From a virus, in IMG/VR virus record IMGVR_UViG_3300017964_000113, positions 1-20,125 of that record: DNA of 20,125 bases; one strand, written 5' to 3'. The notes beneath the pieces were generated by a model that searched no databases, was not told the origin of the DNA, and saw only the letters and a program-made list of their open reading frames with translations. Below, piece after piece: positions 492 through 19,975 of this stretch (position 1 is its first letter; each line of letters starts with the position of its first letter). The translations under genes and the position numbers were made by a program.

Positions 492-866
492 ATGTCATTT
501 GTAATTATCACAGATAAAGCAAAAGAAAAAATTAATCAATTATGCGAAGAAAATAATGTTTTTGCAATCACCCTAAATTTAAAAGGTGGCGGGTGTGCAG
601 GGTATCAATATGATTGGGGAGTAACTGATTCTCCAACACGGCATGACGAAGTAATTAACACAGGTGATGGAAATTTAGCTATAGGAAAAAAAAGTATGTT
701 GTTCTTAATGGGGACTGAAATAGACTATGTTACAAGCATAGTAGGATCAAATTTTGACATACGGAATCCGAATGCGAAATCGAGTTGCGGATGTGGAACG
801 AGTGTAAGTTTTGATGTAAGCACGTTACCTAAAAAGGAAAAACCAGTTTTTACGCCAACCTGGTAA
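492..866 (+). CDS. A-type Fe-S cluster carrier (IscA/SufA/ErpA/HesB family)
   Basis: A 124-residue protein with the full signature of A-type carriers, which accept Fe-S clusters from a scaffold and hand them to apo-enzymes in the cytoplasm. The three ligand cysteines are present: Cys35 in GGGCAGYQY, and Cys99 and Cys101 in SSCGCG, with 63 residues between the first two as in the family. The length is slightly above the usual 105-120 because of a Pro/Lys-rich tail. The start is supported by AGAGGT a few bases upstream. It lies 22 bases before the giant tail gene and probably shares its transcript from the late-promoter-like site at 466. Viral members of this family are known from marine T4-like phages. 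Whether it serves host metabolism or a phage enzyme or virion cluster cannot be told. Which of IscA, SufA or ErpA it resembles most is undecided. Confidence 0.93.
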   Translation: MSFVIITDKAKEKINQLCEENNVFAITLNLKGGGCAGYQYDWGVTDSPTRHDEVINTGDGNLAIGKKSMLFLMGTEIDYVTSIVGSNFDIRNPNAKSSCGCGTSVSFDVSTLPKKEKPVFTPTW

Positions 867-888: not shown

Positions 889-3800
889 ATGGGTATACAA
901 ATAATCAATATAGGTGTCGAAGGAAATGACGGGACTGGTGATAGTATTAGAGAATCGTTTAGAAAAACAAATGAAAATTTTAATGAATTATTTGGATTAT
1001 TAGGTGACGAAGGAAACATAATTGAATGGACGAGATTAGGAGGTACTCCAGACGAATATGAATCTAATAAGGTACTATTTAGTGGCAATATAGATATTTC
1101 GGGAGGTACTCTTCCTACATTAAGTTGGGCAGGTTTTGTAAGTGACAACTATGTTAATTCTAACGATAATGATTCTATTTTAGTTTCATATGCACCTGGC
1201 GCGATAATATTAAGAGCAACATTTAATGAATTATCTCAAGACCCATCTCCTACATTAAGTGCTGGTTTAAATGCAGCTGGATCTGGAATAGCAGGTGTTG
1301 TAATAGACGCTGACGCTGTAGGACAATTTAATGCTGCACACGGCACATCATATACTGAAGATGACTTTGTAATGACAAGAAGGTATGCTGACGACCGTTA
1401 TATATCATCGGCACTTCCACAAGAAGGTGCTGAACAACCAACTGGTGTTTTACATTATACCCTTGAAATAGAAAGATATATAGACGGTGGAGCGCAAATC
1501 CTTTATCATTACAATGCAGCCCAAGAGCTACAAGAAAATGCCGGCCACGGGATAGATTCCGCATTTAACGGTTACGGATTCACATATTATGCAGAAGATG
1601 TCAAAAATCCTAATCTTATAGTAGGGCAAACTTATTATATTAGAGTGGTTAGTGATACATTACTATGGTTTTATGACGACAAAGGCAATGCCCAAACAGC
1701 CGACGAAAATATAGCAGCCAATACCCGTATAGATTTAACTCCAACTGGTGAAATCCTAATTGCCGATACTGATATTCATACAATAACTGATGCTAATTAT
1801 GATTCAACTCTCTCAGGCAGATACCTCGGTAATGAATTAATTCCGAGGAAAAATTTAATTTTAAGAGAAGGAGATAAACTTGTAGGACCGTTAGATTTAC
1901 ATGATCACCCAGGCGACCTAGCTGGAGTTAAAAGTACAGCAGTAGATGACTACCGATCAGTTACTAAATTCTATGTAGACAATACAGCAAATCATACTTC
2001 TCCTGAAAATATCTATGTAAGCACAGGCGGTGATGATTTAATGACAAATGTTCCTGTAGGCTTAGAAGGAACGTGCGAAAAATATGCATATGCAAGTATA
2101 AATGCAGCAGCTCGTAGAGCAGAAGAACTGATGCTTGCAGCACCTGTTACTCCAGGTCCTTACATGCAAACTTTAACTCATTCAAATTACACTGCTGCAG
2201 CTACAGTTTTAAAAGCAGAAATTGATATACCATCTGATAACACTGCACGGAAACTGATTGATGAAAATATTTTGTTTTTACAAAAAGAAAGTCTTGCGTT
2301 TCTAAAAAGCACTTATCCTAATTTTACATTTGAAGATAATGATATAGAACTTTACGTAGAAGAAATTTTATCAGCTATTTCTATGGATATAAATCGTGGA
2401 TCTCAATCTAATTTCCTAACAAAACGAGCAGCAAATAATTTTTATAGTTCAGTTTCTAGGCGCATTTTAATTAGGAAGCATCAAGCTGAATTTATTGGTT
2501 TGGTAAATTTTTTAAATAGATATCTTTTAGGTTCCGTTGGTCTCACAACAGGAGGTATCCTTAATAATTTAAGGTACCAAACAGTTAGCATAGCATCTAT
2601 TCAAACAAAAATAATTGATGAAAATAATTTAGAAGTAGCAGTAAGTCCGGCAATCTTAACTACCGATAGTTTACATGGCTGGCCTACTGGCGCAACTATA
2701 TTAATAGAGAATGCCATTGGTTTAGAATATCAAAATATTTCACAAATAAATGATAAAATCTTTTATATAAAACGTCTTACAGAAGACAATGAAATAAGCT
2801 TTGAATTATATTTAGATCAACAATTAAATACACCTTTTAATGGTTTCACTTATACAGATTATGCTGGAGGTGGTACAGTAAGTAGATTGTGGCAAACCGA
2901 TGAAATGCAAACTCTAGGAATTTTGGAATACCAAATTGCAGAAATTACGTCTACATTTCCTGCTCGTATTACTACAAATGTTGCACACAATTTAAATAAT
3001 TTTAGCAACGCTAACTCAGCAACTATTAGAATAACTGGTGTTCAAGAAACAAGTGATAACGGTCCGATCCTCGCCGACTTATTCAACGAAAAAGACTTTA
3101 CTATATTAACTACAGAAGATCCAAATCAATTTTACCTATTCAACGATAGCGGATTTAAATTAGCAAGAGTTAGTTCTATAAGTTTTAGTTCTAACCAAAT
3201 TGTAATTACAACTACCTCAGCCCATGACTTCATTGACGGTGAAGCTATTGTAATAACTGAAATTAATAGTCCTTCTGATTTAAACCAAGTACAATATTTC
3301 GCAAAGATAGATGAATCTAATTCGTTATATATAAAACTAGTAGACGATCTTGGTAATGATATCGTACCAGACCCTAGCTGGTCTTATACTGGTGGAGGTA
3401 TTATAACATCATCTGCAAATGCTATTAATTCTACAAATTTTATTCATGTTGCAGATACCGGAATATTTACAAAAGAAGAAGCTGGGGCAAATGAATCTTC
3501 ACTTATTGGAGTAAATAGTAGATTTGATACTTTTAGAAATATTATTAATCAAGGTTTAGGAGTATCAACTGATACAGTATATGGAAGCACCTATAAATTA
3601 GTACTCAATAATGGTACAGGTTATTACACTGATCAAACACAAGATACCAATGCAGATGCATTACCTGGGAAAGTTTTACGAGGTAAAACATCAAATGCTC
3701 TAGGAAAAATAGTTAATTTTTATAACAATGTTCAAAATGAAGCAACAGTTGCTGAATCAAATCCTACAGTTTTCCAAGTTTTCTTATTAACTCCAAAAGA

Positions 3801-6800
3801 CTTTACGATTGGTGAAGAATTAGAATTTGGTAATTATATCAATGATAAAGAAATTACAATTAAAATAGAAACTGGAATTTACGAAGAAGATTATCCAATA
3901 CGAATAATGAATAATGTATCAATTGTAGGCGATGAATTTAGACGTGTCATTATTAAACCAAAAACACAAGGAACAAGCAATATTGCTAGAATAAGCCAAA
4001 GCAAGTGGGCAACTAATTATTTCTACAGAGATAATGAATTTGACGGATTGCAAATAGCAAGAGGAGGAACAGATTTTATAAATCAAGTAGGTGAGTTGCA
4101 AGGAAAATTCGGATACCACTACTTGCAAGACCCAAGTAAACCCACCAATATTGGTGAAGATGGAGTCACAACTAATTATGGGGGTTACCAAACAAGTGCA
4201 GATATTATTGCTGCGAATAAAGATTACTTAATTGAAGAAACTAATTATTATTTAAAATCAGTTACGCCAGAAGTACCATATAACACAGAAAAATCAAGAA
4301 GAGATACAGGATATGTAATAGATGCTTTGATAGCGGATTTAAAAATAGGTGGAAATAGTAATATTTTAGAAATGCAAGGATCATTTTACGGAGGACAATT
4401 CACCGGACCAGAACAAGAATCTGCTTGTTCTGCCGCATTAAGTAACATAAAAACACTTGCTACCTCATTAGTTCAAAATATTGCTCCTACATATTTCATT
4501 CAACAACAAGCATTTACAGCAGAAACAGGAACAGAATATTTTCCAAGTAGTGGAGACCTAAGAATAATAATTGGGTCAGGTCACGGTTTAAATGTCGGAG
4601 ATTATATAGAAATTTTACCTGAATCGTTAGTTTTTACCTGTGAAGCAGATAACCATACTACTCTTCATTATTATCCTGACCCTGCATCACCTGCATACAA
4701 AACCAAAATACAAATTCAAAGTTTATATGATACTACAGGAATAGTGGTAAACGTTGGAACACACAATTCAATTACTGAACCTAGTATTGTTCCTCATATT
4801 TTTAGAAAAACAGAAAGCCAAGATAATAGTATTACAGTCAAAAGATACGAAGCTGGATCTACAGTTGTAACAGACATAGAACCAGTTGATTTACGTATCA
4901 CGGGCGAACCTGACGAACTTACTGCATATGCACTCAATGATCTTGAAACTAGAAGCTCTGTTATGTCTATTATAGATGTTTTAATTAATCAATTAGTTTT
5001 CGTGTTTGACCCTGACTATAATCCTCCACTAAGAAACGATGAAATGGATGTATTTTTGCTAGGTGACACAACTATTTTAAGGCAAATAACATGTAGAGGT
5101 CATGGCGGTTTTATGGCGGTTTTAGATCCTGACAATCAAATACTTACTAAATCACCATATATTCAAACAGCGAGTAGTTTTAGCAAGAGTATTAATAAAC
5201 AAACTTTCGCAGGAGGCATGTTTGTTGATGCCTATGTAGGAAATTTACCTACAAAAATTACCGGTGTTGTTGCAGAAAGCAGTAAAACTATTATACTAGA
5301 CGATGGAAGCAGCACACAAGGTTACTTCACTTTAGGTATTCAAAGTGATGTTGGAGAAGGTCTACGAATTAGAGAACCGCAATTACCCTGTCCATTTTAT
5401 TTAGACGGTAGACGTTTCCAAATTAACGCAATTTCTGATTACAATAGTTTTGCTGGCACAGCTAAAATTTATTTAGATGCAAGCTCTAATAATAAACAAG
5501 GATTTATACCTGAGCAAATACCTAACCTGATTTATCCAATGGGCATATTCCTACAAACTGCTGGTAATAGAAGTATATTAGGCAATGATTACACCCAAGT
5601 AAATGATCTTGGTTATGGACTGCTATGTACAAATGGTGCATTTTCAGAAATGGTTTCAATGTTTACCTATTATTGTCATGTTGCATACTATGCAGCTAAT
5701 GGTGCTGAGATTAGGTCACTAAACGGATCTAATGGATATGGAAATTTTGGTTTAGTGGCAGAAGGAGCTGATCCTAACGAGATTCCAGATCAAGTGGTTT
5801 TGACATATGATATGGTACAGCCATTAAAAGCGTTTACTACCTCACAAAATCCAAATGAATATGAACAAACAAGTATAACAGTGTATGACGCTAAAAGAAT
5901 GCCTACTGCTGGTAGTGAATTTACTGTTGATCATGGTACAGTCACAATTGACGGTACTCAAGTAGATGTTGGTATACTTAATTACGTTGTTTCAAGTGTT
6001 ACATCATTAAGTGATAGAGATGCATCTTCAACTCGATTAATTAGAATGGCAACTTCGCAAACATTCGCTGAAGGTACAAAATTACAGTTTAGTGGCGAAA
6101 TTACAGGCGTAGTTGCTGCAAACCATTACAATGACAATTGGTTATCTTTAAGATCATTAAGTAGCGAAATATCAACCCTAACAACTATTGTAGGTATATT
6201 GGATGCATCTAACGTACAAATAACAACTTATGATCCTGCAATTATAATTACAGAAGTAGACACAGATGGCATTGTAGGTATTGTAAACCAAGATGATGTT
6301 GTAAATGGAGGCGTAACTGCACTAGATACTAGTAATCAAGGTAGTATACTTGTTGCAGCTGGATTCCTGGGACTACAAAATGTTTTTACTAAAACAACAG
6401 GCGATGGTTATGGACTATGCGTAGATATAGGACCAGATCAATCTATTACTATTGTTACTACAGGACAAAATTATGCAGCTAATGATGCGATTACAATTAG
6501 TTTCAATGATGGATCCAATGATCTTGAAATTACTGGCATTACAGTTGATACTGTACACGGAACATCTAAAGGTATTTACAGTAACCTAGTTTATAGATTA
6601 GACATTATTGCAGATAATACAACACCAATTGATAAATTTCCTGTCCTACAAGGAGATATACCGCATGATACATATTTAGAATATAGAGATTACACTATCT
6701 TCCAATTTTCAAATGTAAATGATAGAGCTGGTTTGGTAACTAGACCTAGCACTGCGATCAATTTAGATGAAAGCGACGACGTTACGTATAGAAGTTTGGC

Positions 6801-9800
6801 TTTCCAAAGTGTGGATAGTATATCTAGAGATATCTTAACCAACGATGGAACACTTGCTACTGTTGAAGTTGGGTATGACTATATTACTTTACAAACGCTT
6901 ACTTTTAATTCTACAAATCCTACAAATGATTTTATAGGTGATAACTGCGGAAATACTATAGGCGACACTCGAATAGCAATTTTACCATTAGATGACGCTC
7001 AAGGTTTATATGGTCAAATTGCAAGAATAACAAAAGACACTACAAATTATTCTGCACATGGTATTATAACCGATACTACAGATCCTAATTACGTAGGAGG
7101 AATGATATTTACTCATCAAGGAAAAACCCATAGAATTATTAATTATAAAGAATTAGTTAAATTAACTCTGAGTACGCAGATTTCAGCAGTTCAAGATGAT
7201 ATGCTTACCCAAGCAAGCACAGGAGCTAGTGCCAAAATTGCAGCAAATTATTCATCCGAAAATATAATTTTTGTATATGATATACAAAATGAATTGACAA
7301 CAGGCACTGCGACAATAGACGGTGCCACAGTTACTATATCAAATATTAATATAGGTAGGAACGCCGCGTTTATAGATATTGCACCACTAGATTCAATAGC
7401 AAACGGAATAGGATGGACAGCGACCGATTTAACAGCTTCTAGCACTTATGGAATATCTGCCCCAATGCTTTCCGACGAAGCAAGAAAATTTTATGTAGGA
7501 TTACCTGCATTATCATCAGCAGAAATCACTGTTAGGATATCATTGTGTAGAGCAACTGGTCATGATTTTACACAAATAGGTACCGGAGGATTTAACACCT
7601 CAAACTATCCTAACGTAATATTAGGACCGCCCACAGAAAGTTTAGCAGATTCATACACATCAGCGCCTAATGCATTTAAAGCCCAAGTATGGGAAAGAAG
7701 AAAAGGAAGAGTATTTTGGGTAAGTACAGATCAATATGGATTTTTTAGAGTAGGAAAATTCTTCGAAGTTGATCAAGGAACTGGTGACATTACCTTCTCA
7801 GGACAAGTCGGTTTATCAAGTGCAAACTCTTTAGGATTTAAAAAAGGAGTAGTAATCGATGAGTTTTCGGCAGACGATACATTTGCAGATCTTTCTGGTA
7901 AAGCTGTACCAGTAGAAAAAGCTATCGCAGGATATATCAATCGCGTCCTAGGATATAATCCTCAGGCTTTAACTCAAATAACAGGGGCACAACGTATTGG
8001 TACAGGATTCCTTACCCTAAACGGTGTAACTCCATTGGAAGGTAACATAGATGCAAATCAATTTAGAATCACTAATGTTGGTCCTCCAACAGAACCAACT
8101 GACGCAATCACAAAAGCATATGTAGATGCTAATGTTGAAAGATTTAATTCTCTCGGAGTATTAAGAGATTTTTATGAAACACCTTTAGAAGGATCTGCAG
8201 GAGAACTCATAGTTGCTACAGGTAGATTTATAATGTATACAGAAATAGAATCAGGTGGTGGTGCATTTTCTGTAGGGCAGACTATAAAAGGAAATCAATC
8301 AGGAGCAACAGGTTTTATAGTCCACGTAGAAACTATTAACGATATACTGTTAAGTAACACAGGATCTGGTACACGTAAAATTATATATACTTTAACTAGT
8401 GCTACCAATTTTAATGCAGGTATAGATATAGTAAGCAATTGGACACCCGATGGTCAAACGCCAGAAGGAAGTTCTGCTGCAATGCTTACTAATAATATTA
8501 ATGAAGACCTAGGAGGACCGTATCAAGAGTATACCCATGCATCAGTAATATCTGATAGTGATGTGAAATGGTTAATTTCAAAACCTGCAGATGGACAAGA
8601 TGCGAATATTTCTAATACTAAAATAGATTTGACAATACAAAGCGAAGTTATTTTTGATAGCATGATTAATCCGGATGCTCGAATTAAACAAAGCAAACTA
8701 GATATGCAAAGTGCAACAGTTTATTCTGATACCTTCAGTAGCATAACACAGGCAGATTTAGGATTATCGGCATTTAATTCTAAAGAATTTTCAACCCTTG
8801 GAACAATCCGTTTAACAACTCCTATCACAGCGAATGAAGGTGACCCAATTACACAAGGAACGCTTGGAGCAACAGCGGAAGCAACAATTGCAAGAACAGT
8901 TACGAACAGTGATTTAATCACTATAAGATTAAATTCCGGCAATTTTATTGCAGGTACCAGCACAAATGAATTTCCTAACAACGTTGTCAAAGAAAATATT
9001 CTAGATTCTCCAGCTTCTGCTTCAGCTGTTGAAAATACAGGTTGGATAGAACTAAAAACTGCTACAAGTGATGCTGATGGTGTAACATTACCAAAACTGT
9101 CTTGGATGCAACAGTTTGAGGTAATAGGCAGAAAATCTGCTGTTGCAGGTAATGGGCATTCAACAGCAGAGCATGTAACATTCAAAGAAGTGATAAACTT
9201 AGGAGGAGGAGTTCACGACGATGATTTTGGAATATCTTACACAGCAGGACAAAATGATGTATTGTTAAGGAGTGCAGTTGGTACTTATGGTACAAAGAAA
9301 TTAGCATATCTTCCTACTCAAGACACCTTTGTTGTTAGAAATCCAACACCACCGCAGACTGGGGATCCGAGAGCAGGATCAATCCAAGTAAGTTCACTTA
9401 TTATTGGATCGAATGTCAATGCAGAAGTATTAGCTTTGTATGCTAATAATTCAAACCAAATAGAATTAAAATCACCTACTGGTAATAGGACAATCTTAAA
9501 AGCTGGTAGCAGTGATGCAGAAACTAGATTTACAGTAGAAATGCCTGATCAACTAAATGTAGGCGATGCAAGGTTCACGCACGGCACTGAGCGGCATTTA
9601 GTTGAGGTAAGCAGTGACATTCAATCTAACGCTAAAAACACTGCGCCAAATGCTTTAGAAGATTATACTAAGGGGTTTGTTGCTAGTAATTGGATCTACA
9701 CAAAAGGTATAGAAGCAATTGACGAAGCTAACATCAGAAATAGTACCAATACTGCTACAGTTGGAAATACTGGCGGGACTGGTATGGTATTTGGTGCTCA

Positions 9801-10887
9801 TACAGGTTTTAATGATAGTGCTTCGGATAATATCGTATTCTTTACAAACGGCGTAGCGGAGGCAAAATTAGACGGAACAGCTCTTTATGTAGATGAAGTT
9901 AGATCATTAACAGCAGATGGAAATTTTACTATCTATTACCCAAATGGGTACCCTGATGGACAGAACACTGGAAACGGAAAAGTAATAATTTATCCGGCTA
10001 CAGACTTACTAAAAAACGTAACTATAGGTACTGCAGCAACAAATGCAAGTTTAAGTGTAAATGGCAATTTTACTAGCACAGGAAAAAGCACATTTTCAAA
10101 AATATTTGACGAAAGTTTAAATGAAGAATTTCTAGTTGCAGGAAGATCAAAATTTGAAAATTCAGTAGAGATTACAGCAAGTACAACTATCGGCACAATA
10201 GATGTTGAGCAAGAACTCCATGTTTATGATAAAATAAAAATTTCAAAAAAGACTGAGGGTAATAATGCTAAATTATATACCGGTGACAATATTTTAGAAA
10301 TTAAGACAACAAACGATGAGTCAGATCCACAAGCAATTGCCTACGGAAGGATAGACTTATATAATGATGTAGTAGTAAAAAGGAACCTAACTGTTGATGG
10401 AAATATTAACCCAGATACTACTAATACAAGAATGATAGGTAGTGCAGATCTTAAATGGAATACTATTTATGCAACTACGTTTAATGGTACTGCATTAACT
10501 GCTCAATATGCCGACTTAGCTGAGAATTATTTAGCAGACAAAGAGTATGATGCCGGAACCGTGTTGATTTTTGGTGGTCAAAATGAAGTCACCGATACGG
10601 ATATAAAATGCAATAGACGTGTAGCAGGTGTAGTATCTTCTAATCCGGCTTATTTAATGAATGCTGACTGTACAGGAGAACATGTAACACCAATAGCATT
10701 ACAAGGGCGTGTACCATGTAAAGTCATCGGTATTGTAGAAAAAGGCGATTTATTAGTTTCTAGTGCAATGTCAGGCTATGCTATTGTTGATAACGATCCG
10801 CCAATAGGAACAGTCTTAGGTAAAGCAGTAGGAGAAAAAACCAACGACGGTAAGGGCGTTGTTGAAATTGTAGTAGGAAGAGTATAA
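889..10887 (+). CDS. Giant multidomain virion/tail structural protein (3332 aa)
   Basis: One uninterrupted frame starts at an ATG eight bases after AGGAG. Residues 5-33 form a short module (INIG...NDGTGD...R.SF.K.N.NF) shared with the gene at 14414. Residues about 590-830 hold three similar beta-rich segments around TT..H.. turns, like FCCH-type repeats. Around residue 1003, PIRIMNNVSIVGDEFRR resembles the entry to a right-handed beta-helix. Blocks near 1385 (NDEMDVFLLGD) and 1564 (NDYTQVNDLGYG) match segments I associate with large structural proteins of marine T4-like phages. Residues about 2263-2335 (QVWERRKGRVFW; EFSADDTF) are followed by a collar-like block near 2392-2413 (RITNVGPPTEPTDAITKAYV) typical of fibres. 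The last ~125 residues start at YADLAENYLAD (3207) and resemble the intramolecular-chaperone/Peptidase_G2-like end of phage fibres. It is likely a very long fibre or baseplate-periphery protein. The domain names are judged by eye. Confidence 0.9.
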   Translation: MGIQIINIGVEGNDGTGDSIRESFRKTNENFNELFGLLGDEGNIIEWTRLGGTPDEYESNKVLFSGNIDISGGTLPTLSWAGFVSDNYVNSNDNDSILVSYAPGAIILRATFNELSQDPSPTLSAGLNAAGSGIAGVVIDADAVGQFNAAHGTSYTEDDFVMTRRYADDRYISSALPQEGAEQPTGVLHYTLEIERYIDGGAQILYHYNAAQELQENAGHGIDSAFNGYGFTYYAEDVKNPNLIVGQTYYIRVVSDTLLWFYDDKGNAQTADENIAANTRIDLTPTGEILIADTDIHTITDANYDSTLSGRYLGNELIPRKNLILREGDKLVGPLDLHDHPGDLAGVKSTAVDDYRSVTKFYVDNTANHTSPENIYVSTGGDDLMTNVPVGLEGTCEKYAYASINAAARRAEELMLAAPVTPGPYMQTLTHSNYTAAATVLKAEIDIPSDNTARKLIDENILFLQKESLAFLKSTYPNFTFEDNDIELYVEEILSAISMDINRGSQSNFLTKRAANNFYSSVSRRILIRKHQAEFIGLVNFLNRYLLGSVGLTTGGILNNLRYQTVSIASIQTKIIDENNLEVAVSPAILTTDSLHGWPTGATILIENAIGLEYQNISQINDKIFYIKRLTEDNEISFELYLDQQLNTPFNGFTYTDYAGGGTVSRLWQTDEMQTLGILEYQIAEITSTFPARITTNVAHNLNNFSNANSATIRITGVQETSDNGPILADLFNEKDFTILTTEDPNQFYLFNDSGFKLARVSSISFSSNQIVITTTSAHDFIDGEAIVITEINSPSDLNQVQYFAKIDESNSLYIKLVDDLGNDIVPDPSWSYTGGGIITSSANAINSTNFIHVADTGIFTKEEAGANESSLIGVNSRFDTFRNIINQGLGVSTDTVYGSTYKLVLNNGTGYYTDQTQDTNADALPGKVLRGKTSNALGKIVNFYNNVQNEATVAESNPTVFQVFLLTPKDFTIGEELEFGNYINDKEITIKIETGIYEEDYPIRIMNNVSIVGDEFRRVIIKPKTQGTSNIARISQSKWATNYFYRDNEFDGLQIARGGTDFINQVGELQGKFGYHYLQDPSKPTNIGEDGVTTNYGGYQTSADIIAANKDYLIEETNYYLKSVTPEVPYNTEKSRRDTGYVIDALIADLKIGGNSNILEMQGSFYGGQFTGPEQESACSAALSNIKTLATSLVQNIAPTYFIQQQAFTAETGTEYFPSSGDLRIIIGSGHGLNVGDYIEILPESLVFTCEADNHTTLHYYPDPASPAYKTKIQIQSLYDTTGIVVNVGTHNSITEPSIVPHIFRKTESQDNSITVKRYEAGSTVVTDIEPVDLRITGEPDELTAYALNDLETRSSVMSIIDVLINQLVFVFDPDYNPPLRNDEMDVFLLGDTTILRQITCRGHGGFMAVLDPDNQILTKSPYIQTASSFSKSINKQTFAGGMFVDAYVGNLPTKITGVVAESSKTIILDDGSSTQGYFTLGIQSDVGEGLRIREPQLPCPFYLDGRRFQINAISDYNSFAGTAKIYLDASSNNKQGFIPEQIPNLIYPMGIFLQTAGNRSILGNDYTQVNDLGYGLLCTNGAFSEMVSMFTYYCHVAYYAANGAEIRSLNGSNGYGNFGLVAEGADPNEIPDQVVLTYDMVQPLKAFTTSQNPNEYEQTSITVYDAKRMPTAGSEFTVDHGTVTIDGTQVDVGILNYVVSSVTSLSDRDASSTRLIRMATSQTFAEGTKLQFSGEITGVVAANHYNDNWLSLRSLSSEISTLTTIVGILDASNVQITTYDPAIIITEVDTDGIVGIVNQDDVVNGGVTALDTSNQGSILVAAGFLGLQNVFTKTTGDGYGLCVDIGPDQSITIVTTGQNYAANDAITISFNDGSNDLEITGITVDTVHGTSKGIYSNLVYRLDIIADNTTPIDKFPVLQGDIPHDTYLEYRDYTIFQFSNVNDRAGLVTRPSTAINLDESDDVTYRSLAFQSVDSISRDILTNDGTLATVEVGYDYITLQTLTFNSTNPTNDFIGDNCGNTIGDTRIAILPLDDAQGLYGQIARITKDTTNYSAHGIITDTTDPNYVGGMIFTHQGKTHRIINYKELVKLTLSTQISAVQDDMLTQASTGASAKIAANYSSENIIFVYDIQNELTTGTATIDGATVTISNINIGRNAAFIDIAPLDSIANGIGWTATDLTASSTYGISAPMLSDEARKFYVGLPALSSAEITVRISLCRATGHDFTQIGTGGFNTSNYPNVILGPPTESLADSYTSAPNAFKAQVWERRKGRVFWVSTDQYGFFRVGKFFEVDQGTGDITFSGQVGLSSANSLGFKKGVVIDEFSADDTFADLSGKAVPVEKAIAGYINRVLGYNPQALTQITGAQRIGTGFLTLNGVTPLEGNIDANQFRITNVGPPTEPTDAITKAYVDANVERFNSLGVLRDFYETPLEGSAGELIVATGRFIMYTEIESGGGAFSVGQTIKGNQSGATGFIVHVETINDILLSNTGSGTRKIIYTLTSATNFNAGIDIVSNWTPDGQTPEGSSAAMLTNNINEDLGGPYQEYTHASVISDSDVKWLISKPADGQDANISNTKIDLTIQSEVIFDSMINPDARIKQSKLDMQSATVYSDTFSSITQADLGLSAFNSKEFSTLGTIRLTTPITANEGDPITQGTLGATAEATIARTVTNSDLITIRLNSGNFIAGTSTNEFPNNVVKENILDSPASASAVENTGWIELKTATSDADGVTLPKLSWMQQFEVIGRKSAVAGNGHSTAEHVTFKEVINLGGGVHDDDFGISYTAGQNDVLLRSAVGTYGTKKLAYLPTQDTFVVRNPTPPQTGDPRAGSIQVSSLIIGSNVNAEVLALYANNSNQIELKSPTGNRTILKAGSSDAETRFTVEMPDQLNVGDARFTHGTERHLVEVSSDIQSNAKNTAPNALEDYTKGFVASNWIYTKGIEAIDEANIRNSTNTATVGNTGGTGMVFGAHTGFNDSASDNIVFFTNGVAEAKLDGTALYVDEVRSLTADGNFTIYYPNGYPDGQNTGNGKVIIYPATDLLKNVTIGTAATNASLSVNGNFTSTGKSTFSKIFDESLNEEFLVAGRSKFENSVEITASTTIGTIDVEQELHVYDKIKISKKTEGNNAKLYTGDNILEIKTTNDESDPQAIAYGRIDLYNDVVVKRNLTVDGNINPDTTNTRMIGSADLKWNTIYATTFNGTALTAQYADLAENYLADKEYDAGTVLIFGGQNEVTDTDIKCNRRVAGVVSSNPAYLMNADCTGEHVTPIALQGRVPCKVIGIVEKGDLLVSSAMSGYAIVDNDPPIGTVLGKAVGEKTNDGKGVVEIVVGRV

Positions 10888-12634: not shown

Positions 12635-14182
12635 ATGAGTACTGAAGACCAAAACAGAGCCGTTGTTACACTACACAAAGGCGTAGATACAGAAGAATTT
12701 GTAAACCAGATGATGGATGCTGGATACGATTTACATGACGAAAAGCCCGGCAGTAAACGTAACTTTGACTTTGTTATGACTCAGGAACAAGCCGCCGAAT
12801 TACGAAAAGATCCACGTATTATAGATGTACGTTATGGTAGTAAAATTGAAAACGGATATCATCTCATTAATGCAAGTTTAGATGAAATTACACGAGCTTA
12901 TGAGAAAGGGAATACACTAGCATCTGATCAAGGCAATTGGGGACTATTAAGTTGTACTAGTGGTGCTGATCCATATGGTGGCATAAGCGGAACTGTTCCT
13001 TATAATTTTCCATATACACTAAGCGGTCAAGACATTGATGTAGTAATTCAAGATACTGGTATTCAACCAGATCACCCAGAATTTATTAGCGATGCTGACG
13101 GAGCAACAGTAAGATACCAACAAGTTGATTGGCCAAGTATCAGTGGACTGAGTGCTACATACACACAGCCAGCGCAATATCACAGAGATATTGATGGACA
13201 CGGAACACACGTTGCAGGTATTGCAGTGGGTAGACGATTTGGTTGGGCTCGTAATGCCAACATCTACAGTCTAAAAATCTTAGACGATCCTGGTAATACA
13301 TTTGGTACAAGTGCAAGTTTTAACATGCTAAGAGCTTGGCATAACAGTAAAAAGGCAAGTAACCCACAAGATGATAGTGTACCTATTCGTCCAACTATTG
13401 TTAACATGAGTTGGGGATATTTTGCTGTCTATGAAAATATTGTTGGTGGAGAATATCGCGGCGCATTATGGAGTGGTACTACTATGCAAGGACAGTATGG
13501 TATGATACAAGGTCAACAGTACGAAGGTGAGTGGACACATCCAATTCGTGTTGCTAGTGTTGATGCTGATATTCAAGACTGTTTAGATGATGGTATTATC
13601 ATGGTTGCGGCAGCCGGAAATGGCAGTCATAAATGTGATGTGCCTGGCGGACAGGATTACGACAACTTCTGGACTAGCAGTGTATACGGCACAACATATT
13701 ATCATCGTGGATCAACACCTATGGCTCAGCCAGGTGTTATCAGTGTAGGTAATATCAGTTATGTGTATGAGAGTGGGCAGGAACCGCTGTTTAACAGTAG
13801 TGAAAAGGGACCACGTGTAGATATTAGCGCACCAGGCGGTCCTATTATGAGTAGTATTGCAACAGGTAGTACAAAAGCATTGGCTAATGGAACATCAGCA
13901 CACCCAGATAATGCCAGTTGGGAAATCAGTAAACTAAGTGGAACCAGTATGGCATCTCCACAAGTTGCTGGTGTACTGGCATGTTTGTTGGAGGCTAGAC
14001 CACATTATACACAGGCTCAGTGTTTGCGTTGGTTACAGGAAGTTAGCGAAAGTAATAGACTGTATGATCCTACAACTGGTATTCCTAGTACAGACTATAA
14101 TAATAAACGTGCATTGCAAGGTGCTGCAAACCTTTATCTAAAAACTCCTTTTGTAGGAACTCAACCTTATAACGTAAGCTAA
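12635..14182 (+). CDS. Subtilisin-like serine protease (S8 family)
   Basis: A 515-residue protein with an intact S8 catalytic triad. Asp140 is in VVIQDTGIQPDHPEF, His189 in DGHGTHVAG, and Ser438 in SGTSMASPQVAG; Asn329 in AAAGNG is the likely oxyanion-hole residue. Residues about 8-75 look like an I9-type inhibitor propeptide (RAVVTLHKGVD...FDFVMT...RIIDVRYG), so it is probably made as a self-inhibited zymogen. No signal peptide is visible, which fits a protease acting inside the infected cell or packaged in the virion rather than secreted. It sits between fibre genes, so maturation of tail proteins is a plausible role, as is digestion of host surface material. G+C is higher than in the flanks (31 of 60 bases at 13201-13260) and CGT is favoured for Arg, unlike the AGA-rich neighbours, hinting at separate acquisition. 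Confidence 0.95.
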   Translation: MSTEDQNRAVVTLHKGVDTEEFVNQMMDAGYDLHDEKPGSKRNFDFVMTQEQAAELRKDPRIIDVRYGSKIENGYHLINASLDEITRAYEKGNTLASDQGNWGLLSCTSGADPYGGISGTVPYNFPYTLSGQDIDVVIQDTGIQPDHPEFISDADGATVRYQQVDWPSISGLSATYTQPAQYHRDIDGHGTHVAGIAVGRRFGWARNANIYSLKILDDPGNTFGTSASFNMLRAWHNSKKASNPQDDSVPIRPTIVNMSWGYFAVYENIVGGEYRGALWSGTTMQGQYGMIQGQQYEGEWTHPIRVASVDADIQDCLDDGIIMVAAAGNGSHKCDVPGGQDYDNFWTSSVYGTTYYHRGSTPMAQPGVISVGNISYVYESGQEPLFNSSEKGPRVDISAPGGPIMSSIATGSTKALANGTSAHPDNASWEISKLSGTSMASPQVAGVLACLLEARPHYTQAQCLRWLQEVSESNRLYDPTTGIPSTDYNNKRALQGAANLYLKTPFVGTQPYNVS

Positions 14183-17711: not shown

Positions 17712-18290
17712 ATGGCAAGCAATATAAACAGTATAGGTATAGACGAATTTTTTCCAATTGCAGGACAAGACAATGATAGCCAAGGTTTTAGAGATAATTT
17801 TAATATTATAAAAAATAGTTTATCTACAGCAAAAACAGAAATTACAAGTTTGCAAGATAATAGTGCAGATACTACACAAACGAATAATTTTAATAATAAT
17901 GTTATTATGAATGCAAATTTGCTATCTACTACTGAATTTGTATACACTGTGCAGAATGCTACAGAGCAAACAAATATATATTGGAATAACGGAAATTATC
18001 AAGTTATTCAAGCAGGAAATGATATTTTAATTACACTTAGCGGATGGCCTACAGATATATACGGTAACGACGGTATTGATCGATTAGCTAAATTACGTTT
18101 AGCTATTTCAGGTGACGGTAATGCAAGAACAATTACTTTTAACGATGCTAGTGGCAGAAGCATTAGGGTTCCATCAACTTGGCCAACTCCATTCCAAGTA
18201 ACAAATACCGATAGGCCAAAAATAGTAGATTTTTGGACAACAGATGCATTAGTGCTTTATGCCGACTATGTAGGAGAATTTGGAACCTAA
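17712..18290 (+). CDS. Small tail/baseplate structural protein with DNDSQGFRDNF module (192 aa)
   Basis: Residues about 13-32 (FPIAGQDNDSQGFRDNFNII) form an N-terminal module that I recognise from marine T4-like structural proteins. It appears to be a diverged version of the NDGTGD...R..F.K.N.NF module of the proteins at 889 and 14414. Residues about 33-55 look helical (IIKNSLSTAKTEITSLQDN) and could form a trimeric coiled coil. The rest is a beta-rich domain with aromatic residues (NIYWNNGNYQVIQAG; DFWTTDALVLYADYVGEF). The ATG follows GGAG and an exact late-promoter octamer. I infer a small virion protein sharing a docking site with the larger fibres. No enzyme motif is present. Confidence 0.8.
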   Translation: MASNINSIGIDEFFPIAGQDNDSQGFRDNFNIIKNSLSTAKTEITSLQDNSADTTQTNNFNNNVIMNANLLSTTEFVYTVQNATEQTNIYWNNGNYQVIQAGNDILITLSGWPTDIYGNDGIDRLAKLRLAISGDGNARTITFNDASGRSIRVPSTWPTPFQVTNTDRPKIVDFWTTDALVLYADYVGEFGT

Positions 18291-18291
18291 A

Positions 18292-18501
18292 ATGATATTA
18301 TCAGAATTTGATAAAAATTTTAAAGATATTACAGAAAAAGAAATATTAGAAAAATTAGTAGATGTAAATAAAAAATATTTCTTAACCAATAATCCGCAAG
18401 TAAAACATCAACTGGAACTAATTAAGTTTGAATTAGAAGAAAGATATGAGTTTTTAAAAAAACAACAAAATGAATTTGACAATTTAATCAAAATAGTTTA
18501 A
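18292..18501 (+). CDS. Small charged helical protein, function unknown (69 aa)
   Basis: The start chosen is the ATG at 18292, one base after the previous gene; an in-frame TTG at 18280 would add four residues but sits too close to AGGAG (18272). The product is rich in Lys, Glu, Leu and Phe, with a heptad-like pattern in the second half (VKHQLELIKFELEERYEFLK), so a coiled coil is likely. No known motif is seen. It sits between a structural gene and the DnaE-fragment gene with only 8 bases to the latter, so it is probably co-transcribed with them. It could be a small accessory or assembly protein; this is not supported by more than size and context. Confidence 0.65.
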   Translation: MILSEFDKNFKDITEKEILEKLVDVNKKYFLTNNPQVKHQLELIKFELEERYEFLKKQQNEFDNLIKIV

Positions 18502-18509
18502 AATTAAGT

Positions 18510-19037
18510 ATGGATTTTTCATTAAACAACATTCCAGTACTAAATGATGATGATTTAATTCATTACTTGTATACTGATCCTGCAATAAATTTAAATAATT
18601 TGTTTTGCAAACAATCTACTAACCTCTTAAAATTTAACAAGAATTGTGATAAGTTTGGTTTCTCTCCTTTAAACATTACTACTTTTGAGTGTGTAAATAA
18701 AATTAAAGACGAGGAGTTTTATAAAAACATATTAATTCCGGATGAGTATAAAAATATAAATATTGAAAAAGTTATATTAGATAAATGCACTACGATTGAT
18801 GAATTAGAAAGAGCAAAAAAAGAAATTAAATTATTTAAAGAATATAACTTATTAAACATATTAAAATTTATTATTTTTTTAGTAGATAAAATGCGAGAAA
18901 ATAAGATTGTATGGGGTGTCGGAAGAGGATCTAGTGTAGCAAGTTTCGTGTTATATCTTATAGGTTTAAATAAAATTAATCCTATGCGTTATCATATAGA
19001 GTATACAGAATTTTTTAGAAAGGAAAACAATGAATAA
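18510..19037 (+). CDS. Stand-alone fragment of bacterial DNA polymerase III alpha (DnaE-like)
   Basis: A 175-residue protein whose residues about 111-170 align by eye with the start of the DnaE palm. An amphipathic helix (LLNILKFIIFLVDKMRENKI) leads into WGVGRGSSVASFVLYLIGL and then INPMRYHIEYTEFFR. This mirrors the DnaE pattern GPGRGSGAGSLVAYALxI...DPL.FDLLFERFL, where the GRGS loop contacts the incoming nucleotide. In DnaE the catalytic aspartates (PDFDxDF) follow within about ten residues; here the protein stops at KENNE before them. No PHP domain precedes it. It cannot therefore be a polymerase by itself. T4-like phages replicate with a family B enzyme, so a nucleotide-binding, regulatory or unrelated structural role is more likely. 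The start has no strong ribosome site. Its end overlaps the next gene by 8 bases. Confidence 0.72.
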   Translation: MDFSLNNIPVLNDDDLIHYLYTDPAINLNNLFCKQSTNLLKFNKNCDKFGFSPLNITTFECVNKIKDEEFYKNILIPDEYKNINIEKVILDKCTTIDELERAKKEIKLFKEYNLLNILKFIIFLVDKMRENKIVWGVGRGSSVASFVLYLIGLNKINPMRYHIEYTEFFRKENNE

Positions 19038-19380
19038 AAATATGAAAAAAATGCATTACACAATGCGTGGTAAACCATTTAATATGGATCAACTGAGACA
19101 AAAAAATGAATTAACAATTGCAGTTGGTAATATGCCTGTAAATGCACGTGGAGACATAGTAGGTAAAGGCGGACAAATTATCAAAACTAAAGAATCTGTT
19201 AATGAAGAATATTACAGTAATCTTACAACATTACCAGACGAAACTGTAAATACAAAAAATAATCTTCCAGCCCAAGTTGCAACAGAAAGTACAGAGAAAA
19301 CAGTAGTAAAAAAAACAAGCAAAAAAGAAAAATGGGTCGAGGACGATAACGGAAATTTTGTGTTGAACAGTAATGCTTAA
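19030..19380 (+). CDS. Conserved-looking small phage protein with disordered Lys-rich tail (116 aa)
   Basis: The N-terminal half has a compact, motif-like sequence (MRGKPFNMDQLRQKNELTIA, then VNARGDIVGKGGQII) of a type I believe recurs in marine T4-like phages, but I cannot name a function. The second half is low in hydrophobics and rich in Thr, Glu and Lys (KTVVKKTSKKEKW), so probably disordered, ending in an acidic/aromatic patch. The start is supported by AAGGA a few bases upstream, inside the end of the DnaE-fragment gene, and the stop overlaps the next gene by 8 bases. It may be a small head or scaffold-related protein, but this is speculation. Confidence 0.7.
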   Translation: MNKNMKKMHYTMRGKPFNMDQLRQKNELTIAVGNMPVNARGDIVGKGGQIIKTKESVNEEYYSNLTTLPDETVNTKNNLPAQVATESTEKTVVKKTSKKEKWVEDDNGNFVLNSNA

Positions 19381-19630: not shown

Positions 19631-19975
19631 ATGTACAAATCAATTAAAACAAGTTTAATGCCAATACGAGATAAAGTAATAGTTACAGACATGCATTTTG
19701 GAGAACAACGTACAGCTAGCGGAATAATAATCCGCGACGATGACGGGACAGCACATGGAGTTCATCCCAGATGGGGTCGTGTTTGGGCTAAAGGACATGA
19801 GAATGAAGAAGAATTTAAAGTAGGAGATTGGATTTTGATATCGCACGGTAGATGGACTCATGGAATAAAATTAGAACTAGACGATAAAGAAATAATTATT
19901 AGAATGGTTGATAATGATGATATCTTAGCATATAGTGAAACACGCCCAACTGATGTAATAATAGGAACAGAATGA
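19631..19975 (+). CDS. groES: GroES-like co-chaperonin (Cpn10; analogue of T4 gp31)
   Basis: The 114-residue sequence follows the GroES layout: an N-terminal strand (LMPIRDKVIV, 9-18), a region matching the mobile loop with the hydrophobic GIII tripeptide (31-34) that docks on GroEL, a segment GRVWAKG (49-55) like GRVLAVG, KVGDWILIS (63-71), and a C-terminal MVDNDDILAYSE (92-103) like the GroES end DILAIVE. It probably caps the host GroEL and, by analogy with T4 gp31, helps fold the major capsid protein. The roof loop is expanded and His/Trp-rich (AHGVHPRWGR), as expected if the folding cage is adapted for large phage substrates. A strong AAGGA site precedes the ATG. Its stop overlaps the next start as ATGA. 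Confidence 0.9.
   Translation: MYKSIKTSLMPIRDKVIVTDMHFGEQRTASGIIIRDDDGTAHGVHPRWGRVWAKGHENEEEFKVGDWILISHGRWTHGIKLELDDKEIIIRMVDNDDILAYSETRPTDVIIGTE

Follow-up and report, generated by a model that had tools for sequence, protein, structure and literature searches.

A 175-aa open reading frame (ORF) in the window, the 20,125-base stretch that makes up the virus record IMGVR_UViG_3300017964_000113 of IMG/VR and represents a genome fragment, is very probably one half of a split DNA polymerase III alpha (Pol III alpha) core. In this reading, large T4-like phages build a minimal C-family Pol III alpha from two pieces, of which the protein would be the N-terminal one, and a palm that ends before its own catalytic residues would be explained by an enzyme split over two genes. 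The split is already known from sequence, having been described for group 2.2 jumbo phages in 2021 (Viruses 13:63, PMC7824862, in the sections consulted), and the window adds a further example. Added here are co-occurrence counts, complementary structural models, fixed neighbourhoods by replisome genes and the spread of the pair in viromes.

The window protein matches the Pol III alpha palm up to the catalytic aspartates

The NTPase domain of Pol III alpha (PF07733) matched residues 97–174 of the ORF above the Pfam cut-off (E=1.7e-11), and the PHROG family phrog_11127 ('DNA polymerase', 171 positions) matched residues 13–170 (E=6.9e-45). A profile of the family, built from 94 ORFs, aligned to residues 319–393 of E. 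coli DnaE (E=2.1e-6, probability 89%). In E. coli DnaE, GRGS lies at 361 and the three catalytic Asp residues at 401, 403 and 555; the alignment stops at ERFLN of DnaE, and D401 comes eight residues further on. No match to a PHP domain was found in the 175-aa protein. Where a full-length DnaE would hold a PHP domain, PDFDxDF and fingers in one chain, the window protein is limited to the part that precedes PDFDxDF, as expected of a separate N-terminal NTP-binding half that ends before the catalytic Asp. These matches bear out the initial annotation, which had read the protein as the GRGS part of the Pol III alpha palm, ending just before the catalytic aspartates and free of a PHP domain.

Table 1 Features of the window that bear on the putative split polymerase
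Feature	Position	Strand	Length
Probable first half of a split minimal Pol III alpha (N-terminal; GRGS, nucleotide-binding), phrog_11127	18510..19037	+	175 aa
Stretch of homology with the DnaE palm, residues 97–173 (about 319–396 in E. coli DnaE)	18798..19028	+	
GRGS loop, residues 138–141	18921..18932	+	
Conserved downstream neighbour, phrog_14844	19030..19380	+	116 aa
GroES-like co-chaperonin (PF00166; phrog_931 'head morphogenesis')	19631..19975	+	

Conservation of the GRGS loop among homologues, which had been proposed as a check, was complete: G136, G138, R139, G140, S141, S145, R101 and E105 were invariant in 104/104 aligned rows (88 of them distinct, the repeats including a second copy of the window). 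Identity between the window protein and the other relatives compared was at most 46%, with one exception, a contig end of IMGVR_UViG_3300017962_003408 (locus L001, 5001–5231) that encodes residues 1–77 of the window protein at 100% identity; it looks to come from another sample of this phage or of one very close to it. Rows for the RSV F protein that appeared in the search with the window protein were taken as chance matches of residues 78–148.

A second gene in related phages encodes the remainder of the palm

When named relatives were searched with phrog_405 (full DnaE), 8/13 genomes were found to hold a second ORF of about 190–215 aa with the later DnaE blocks, the best E-value per genome lying between 4.5e-6 and 0.12. 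This second half corresponds to phrog_11778 ('DNA polymerase'), which the first eight examples fit at E=1.7e-63 to 5.9e-104. Its translations show D-[IV]-D-I-D near the N-terminus, followed by K-x-D, which holds the third Asp, by an IRP block and by a fingers block, F-K-K-x-H, in which variation is rare. Twelve positions (D6, D8, D10, H36, G39, K68, D70, R137, P138, K140, H170 and Y174) were invariant in 100/100 aligned rows, 87 of which are distinct. Judged by sequence only, the fit of the second half to DnaE was weak: one of eight second halves matched the Pfam fingers domain above the cut-off, the second-half profile found PDB sequences at E 0.25 through four collinear blocks, and in hhalign comparisons with DnaE each piece was weak singly.

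The two halves occur together. A tblastn search with the first half gave 58 strong phage records (E 7e-14 or better), the best 58 of 82 matching, outside which stand two weak records that were listed and 22 that were unlisted. The carriers are large phages of the RaK2, GAP32, PBECO4, PA5oct and Munch kinds, together with SCTP-2, Atu_ph07, XacN1, Phosso and a Vibrio phage. The same search with the second half of Paride matched 63 records, including the remaining 5/13 named genomes, and 60 of the 63 were listed and compared. By accession, 58/58 strong first-half records also carry the second half, although many of these phages are nearly identical, which leaves closer to a dozen independent cases. 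The second half alone was listed for two records, one of 109 kb and the 141-kb Alishewanella phage Slicko01; in Slicko01 a profile search found the first half as well (E=1.8e-19). Across the 13 named genomes the distance between the halves ranges from 15 to about 220 kb, and none of the 94 first-half and 100 second-half hits was an ORF fusing the two.

In the six frames of the window, a fragment of 20 kb, the second-half profile gave nothing better than E=0.31; judging from its relatives, the window's phage probably encodes a second half. Trees of the first half leave the position of the window unsettled, and genomes with both halves occupy many of the surrounding branches. Beyond named phages, relatives were recovered from IMG/VR as the best 80 of at least 595 matching stretches for the first half and the best 80 of at least 599 for the second, the stretches beyond which may include ordinary DnaE; the split pair is widely spread in environmental viromes.

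Some annotated starts in these genomes appear misplaced. For the second half of Atu_ph07 (YP_009611739.1; L032, NC_042013.1 58304–58798, minus strand), the annotated start lies too far downstream and drops the DIDIDF motif, and a start codon is available in frame at 58879. The first half of Vibrio phage 2.275.O (L006, 6073–6441) is apparently annotated 49–57 residues short, with frame and homology extending upstream to an ATG at 5926 or a GTG at 5902. Separately, PF07733 also matched across positions 132–226 in four genomes, with internal stops, over two adjoining ORFs unlike DnaE, and a fifth weak match of that kind was seen in genome W04; the four were set aside.

The first half is a maintained gene in a conserved neighbourhood

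Gene order around the first half was scored at 79 placed loci on viral contigs (same strand, within 9 kb, E 1e-5), using a succession of the 116-aa family, the GroES-like gene and the clamp loader gene gp44 that was defined in this analysis rather than taken from a published definition. Among loci with room, the phrog_14844-type family lay downstream in 72/72, the GroES-like gene in 64/64 and gp44 in 41/41, and the 116-aa family directly adjoined the first half in all but six of 77. The window shows the first two of these genes in order, and the position of gp44 would fall past its end. The 116-aa neighbour in the window carries a conserved NARGD block. Upstream, the ORF at 18280–18501 had no relative among seven upstream neighbours in other phages.

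Selection on the first half was estimated from 129 pairs at 80–99.5% identity, which have sequences in common and so are not independent; the median dN/dS was 0.12 (range 0.05–0.24). The C-terminal end is likewise kept, with 93/93 complete ORFs stopping 0–5 residues past the end of the profile. The ORF is a maintained gene, and the initial annotation was right to regard it as such rather than as debris, given the gene order kept around the placed loci and the low dN/dS.

The truncated look of the protein could be put down to decay of a full-length dnaE into a remnant, or to a sequencing artefact in such a gene, and the consulted part of the CBB genome paper terms its own 172-aa Pol III alpha 'truncated' (PMC5259590). 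We consider this hardly conceivable. The fixed end point and the dN/dS values speak against it, as does the ORF that follows, which is phrog_14844 and not DnaE, and conservation across phages already refutes it. The initial annotation had also allowed for a neighbouring frame supplying the rest of the polymerase across a sequencing error. This does not agree with a break that is conserved across phages, or with another half lying so far off in the named genomes.

Long contigs that appeared to lack the second half

We searched 38 viral contigs of at least 40 kb, and then 10 more of at least 85 kb, for both halves and for their neighbours. The second half was present in 16/38 and 2/10, and gp41 was present in exactly those 18 of the 48. 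In most cases only a few kb separate the second half from gp41, so that the match largely reflects the absence of that region from the other contigs. Among 34 contigs picked by the first half, four reach gp41 and 4/4 hold the second half (G008, G023, G039 and G044), while the remaining 30 have neither. Conversely, three of the 14 contigs picked by the second half reach gp44 and 3/3 hold the first half (G026, G028 and G033), which is carried by G029 as well. Altogether, the second half is present in 8/8 long viral contigs with the first half and gp41, four of these having been picked by the second half.

Two large contigs, G003 (200 kb) and G006 (156 kb), might be taken as counter-examples, because a sensitive profile search found no second half in either. 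Blastp searches of the two for gp41, gp61 and UvsW also found none of these, and the second half is present on a 357-kb contig whose first half is 100% identical to that of G006. We therefore rejected them as counter-examples; both look like truncated contigs, a reading that for G003 is an inference. Elsewhere in the set, the 118-kb contig G017 (IMGVR_UViG_3300032288_004815) carries two oppositely oriented copies of the first half and of gp44, apparently an inverted duplicate made in assembly. On G016 (C1:40704–42095, minus strand) gp44 matches in two pieces (positions 1–73 and 50–306) within one 468-aa frame, which suggests an insert such as an intein.

These counts bear on the suggestion, made in the initial annotation, of a stand-alone domain that serves as an inhibitor, mimic or decoy of host DnaE. 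Taken by itself the first half is indeed without the catalytic aspartates, as such a protein could be. However, the complementary half is present in every one of the strong named records, in Slicko01 and in all four long contigs that were chosen for the first half and reach gp41, and the rest of the palm, with its three catalytic Asp intact, is found in the second gene of those relatives whose sequences are sufficiently complete. A stand-alone inhibitor or mimic is therefore very improbable, and one half of a two-piece enzyme is the simplest interpretation.

Predicted structures cover adjoining parts of one DnaE core

AlphaFold models were built from alignments of 62 sequences for the first half (pLDDT 85.6, pTM 0.59) and 67 for the second (pLDDT 91.4, pTM 0.76). 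In Foldseek searches of the PDB, Pol III alpha chains ranked top for both models, with best E-values of 0.11 for the first half, which is weak, and 8.2e-4 for the second. Superposition on the palm of E. coli Pol III, which the initial annotation had called for, gave a clear match: using VIA-align, residues 63–173 of the first-half model fitted residues 271–396 of 2hnh (Z 9.5, rmsd 3.4, 104 aligned), and residues 1–194 of the second-half model fitted residues 397–787 (Z 8.8, rmsd 3.7, 184 aligned), with the best-ranked chains from outside Pol III alpha and PolC at Z 2.6 and 3.2. Because the matched stretches of E. coli DnaE abut, the two models represent neighbouring portions of a single DnaE core. 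The structural matches leave out roughly the first 60 residues of the window protein. Relative to DnaE, the interval from the second to the third Asp (the thumb region) is shorter by about 90 residues, and the fingers by about 85–90.

Replication context and proposed role

A family B polymerase was found in 13/13 named relatives, as two frames in Paride and Atu_ph07, and also in contigs G003 and G006; in the window's own phage, such a gene would fall beyond the 20-kb fragment. In the named genomes the first half lies close to gp44 and mostly to the GroES-like gene, and the second half lies near gp41 and, where annotated, the gp61 primase and UvsW. A DnaQ-like 3'–5' exonuclease (PF00929) was located 2.4–4.7 kb from the second half in 9/14 genomes (the named phages W03, W04, W06–W11 and W13), of which eight are related, being RaK2-like or Vibrio phages, so that their independence is low. 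In two of the 14 the PF00929 match lay elsewhere, away from the second half, and in three there was no match at E 0.001.

In the mechanism that we propose, the two proteins would bind each other and so rebuild one nucleotidyltransferase active site, in which the GRGS loop of the first half would face the triphosphate of the dNTP, while the Mg-binding aspartates and the fingers would come from the second half. With lower confidence, the complex may be a short-patch DNA polymerase of low processivity that serves in repair, in gap filling or on one strand beside the family B replicase, and any proofreading might come from the separately encoded DnaQ-like exonuclease. Processive synthesis by the pair is unlikely because most of the thumb has been lost and no clamp-binding part is kept.

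The paired halves could instead keep the palm fold as a nucleotide- or DNA-binding scaffold, or as a regulator of the replisome, and not as a polymerase. This would suit the loss of the PHP domain, of most of the thumb and of everything beyond the fingers, as well as the presence of a family B polymerase in every named genome and the location of the genes near gp44 and gp41/gp61. By contrast, the three catalytic Asp, GRGS and the Lys, Arg and His of the fingers are invariant across divergent phages, which is unexpected for a mere scaffold, and we regard a scaffold or regulator as unlikely, if worth bearing in mind. A working enzyme is the best explanation for an active site that is conserved although two genes share it. 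We regard it as somewhat more likely than not that the pair is an active polymerase.

The fuller proposal, of an active C-family polymerase reconstituted in trans, without a PHP domain and with a near-absent thumb, that works alongside PolB in a T4-like replisome and relies on a DnaQ-like protein of its own gene for proofreading, is put forward tentatively, its chances falling a little short of even. If true, a bacterial-type and an archaeo-eukaryotic-type polymerase would serve one phage fork, the former having about one third of the length of E. coli DnaE. An active pair would provide a test of the minimal size of a C-family polymerase, and of the reason for retaining a C-family enzyme in a phage that has a family B replicase.

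Relation to known systems

In its consulted sections, PMC7824862 describes an N-terminal NTP-binding half and a C-terminal Mg- and template-binding half encoded by distant genes beside a family B polymerase, and names Atu_ph07 as a member of group 2.2. The system studied here agrees with that description in the NTP-binding half being a separate gene, and the same phages are among the relatives; it differs from the jumbo phages described there in that the pair also occurs in Slicko01, with a genome under 200 kb. Compared with bacterial DnaE, the GRGS palm segment is retained in the first half, and DxDxD, K-x-D with its third Asp, the IRP block and F-x-K-x-H are retained in the second gene, whereas the PHP domain, most of the thumb and all that follows the fingers are missing, and about 370 aa in two chains stand against 1160 in one for E. 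coli. In PHROG the halves are full-length matches of phrog_11127 and phrog_11778 respectively, two separate families that are unlinked in the scan output.

Other reports touch on parts of this system. For Atu_ph07, a Pol III alpha (gp316) and an epsilon subunit (gp671) are listed in the consulted part of PMC6102473, and PF07733 was found in 51.9% of one cluster of marine jumbo phages, the split or full form being unspecified in the portion consulted (PMC9123017). The intein-split PolB of MIJ3 (PMC6892783) and the split polymerases of OM43 phages (PMC10580990), as far as the consulted excerpts go, are different matters. The consulted text of PMC12926913, on bacterial polymerases, contains nothing on this split, and the literature searched yielded no experimental work on the pair.

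Other genes in the window

Half of the window is taken up by one ORF of 3332 aa (889–10887, plus strand). An ORF at 492–866 (plus strand) encodes a protein resembling A-type iron-sulphur carriers (PF01521, E=3.8e-17). A 515-aa ORF (12635–14182, plus strand) contains HGTHVAG and GTSMASPQ, which we take to be motifs as in subtilisin-like proteases.
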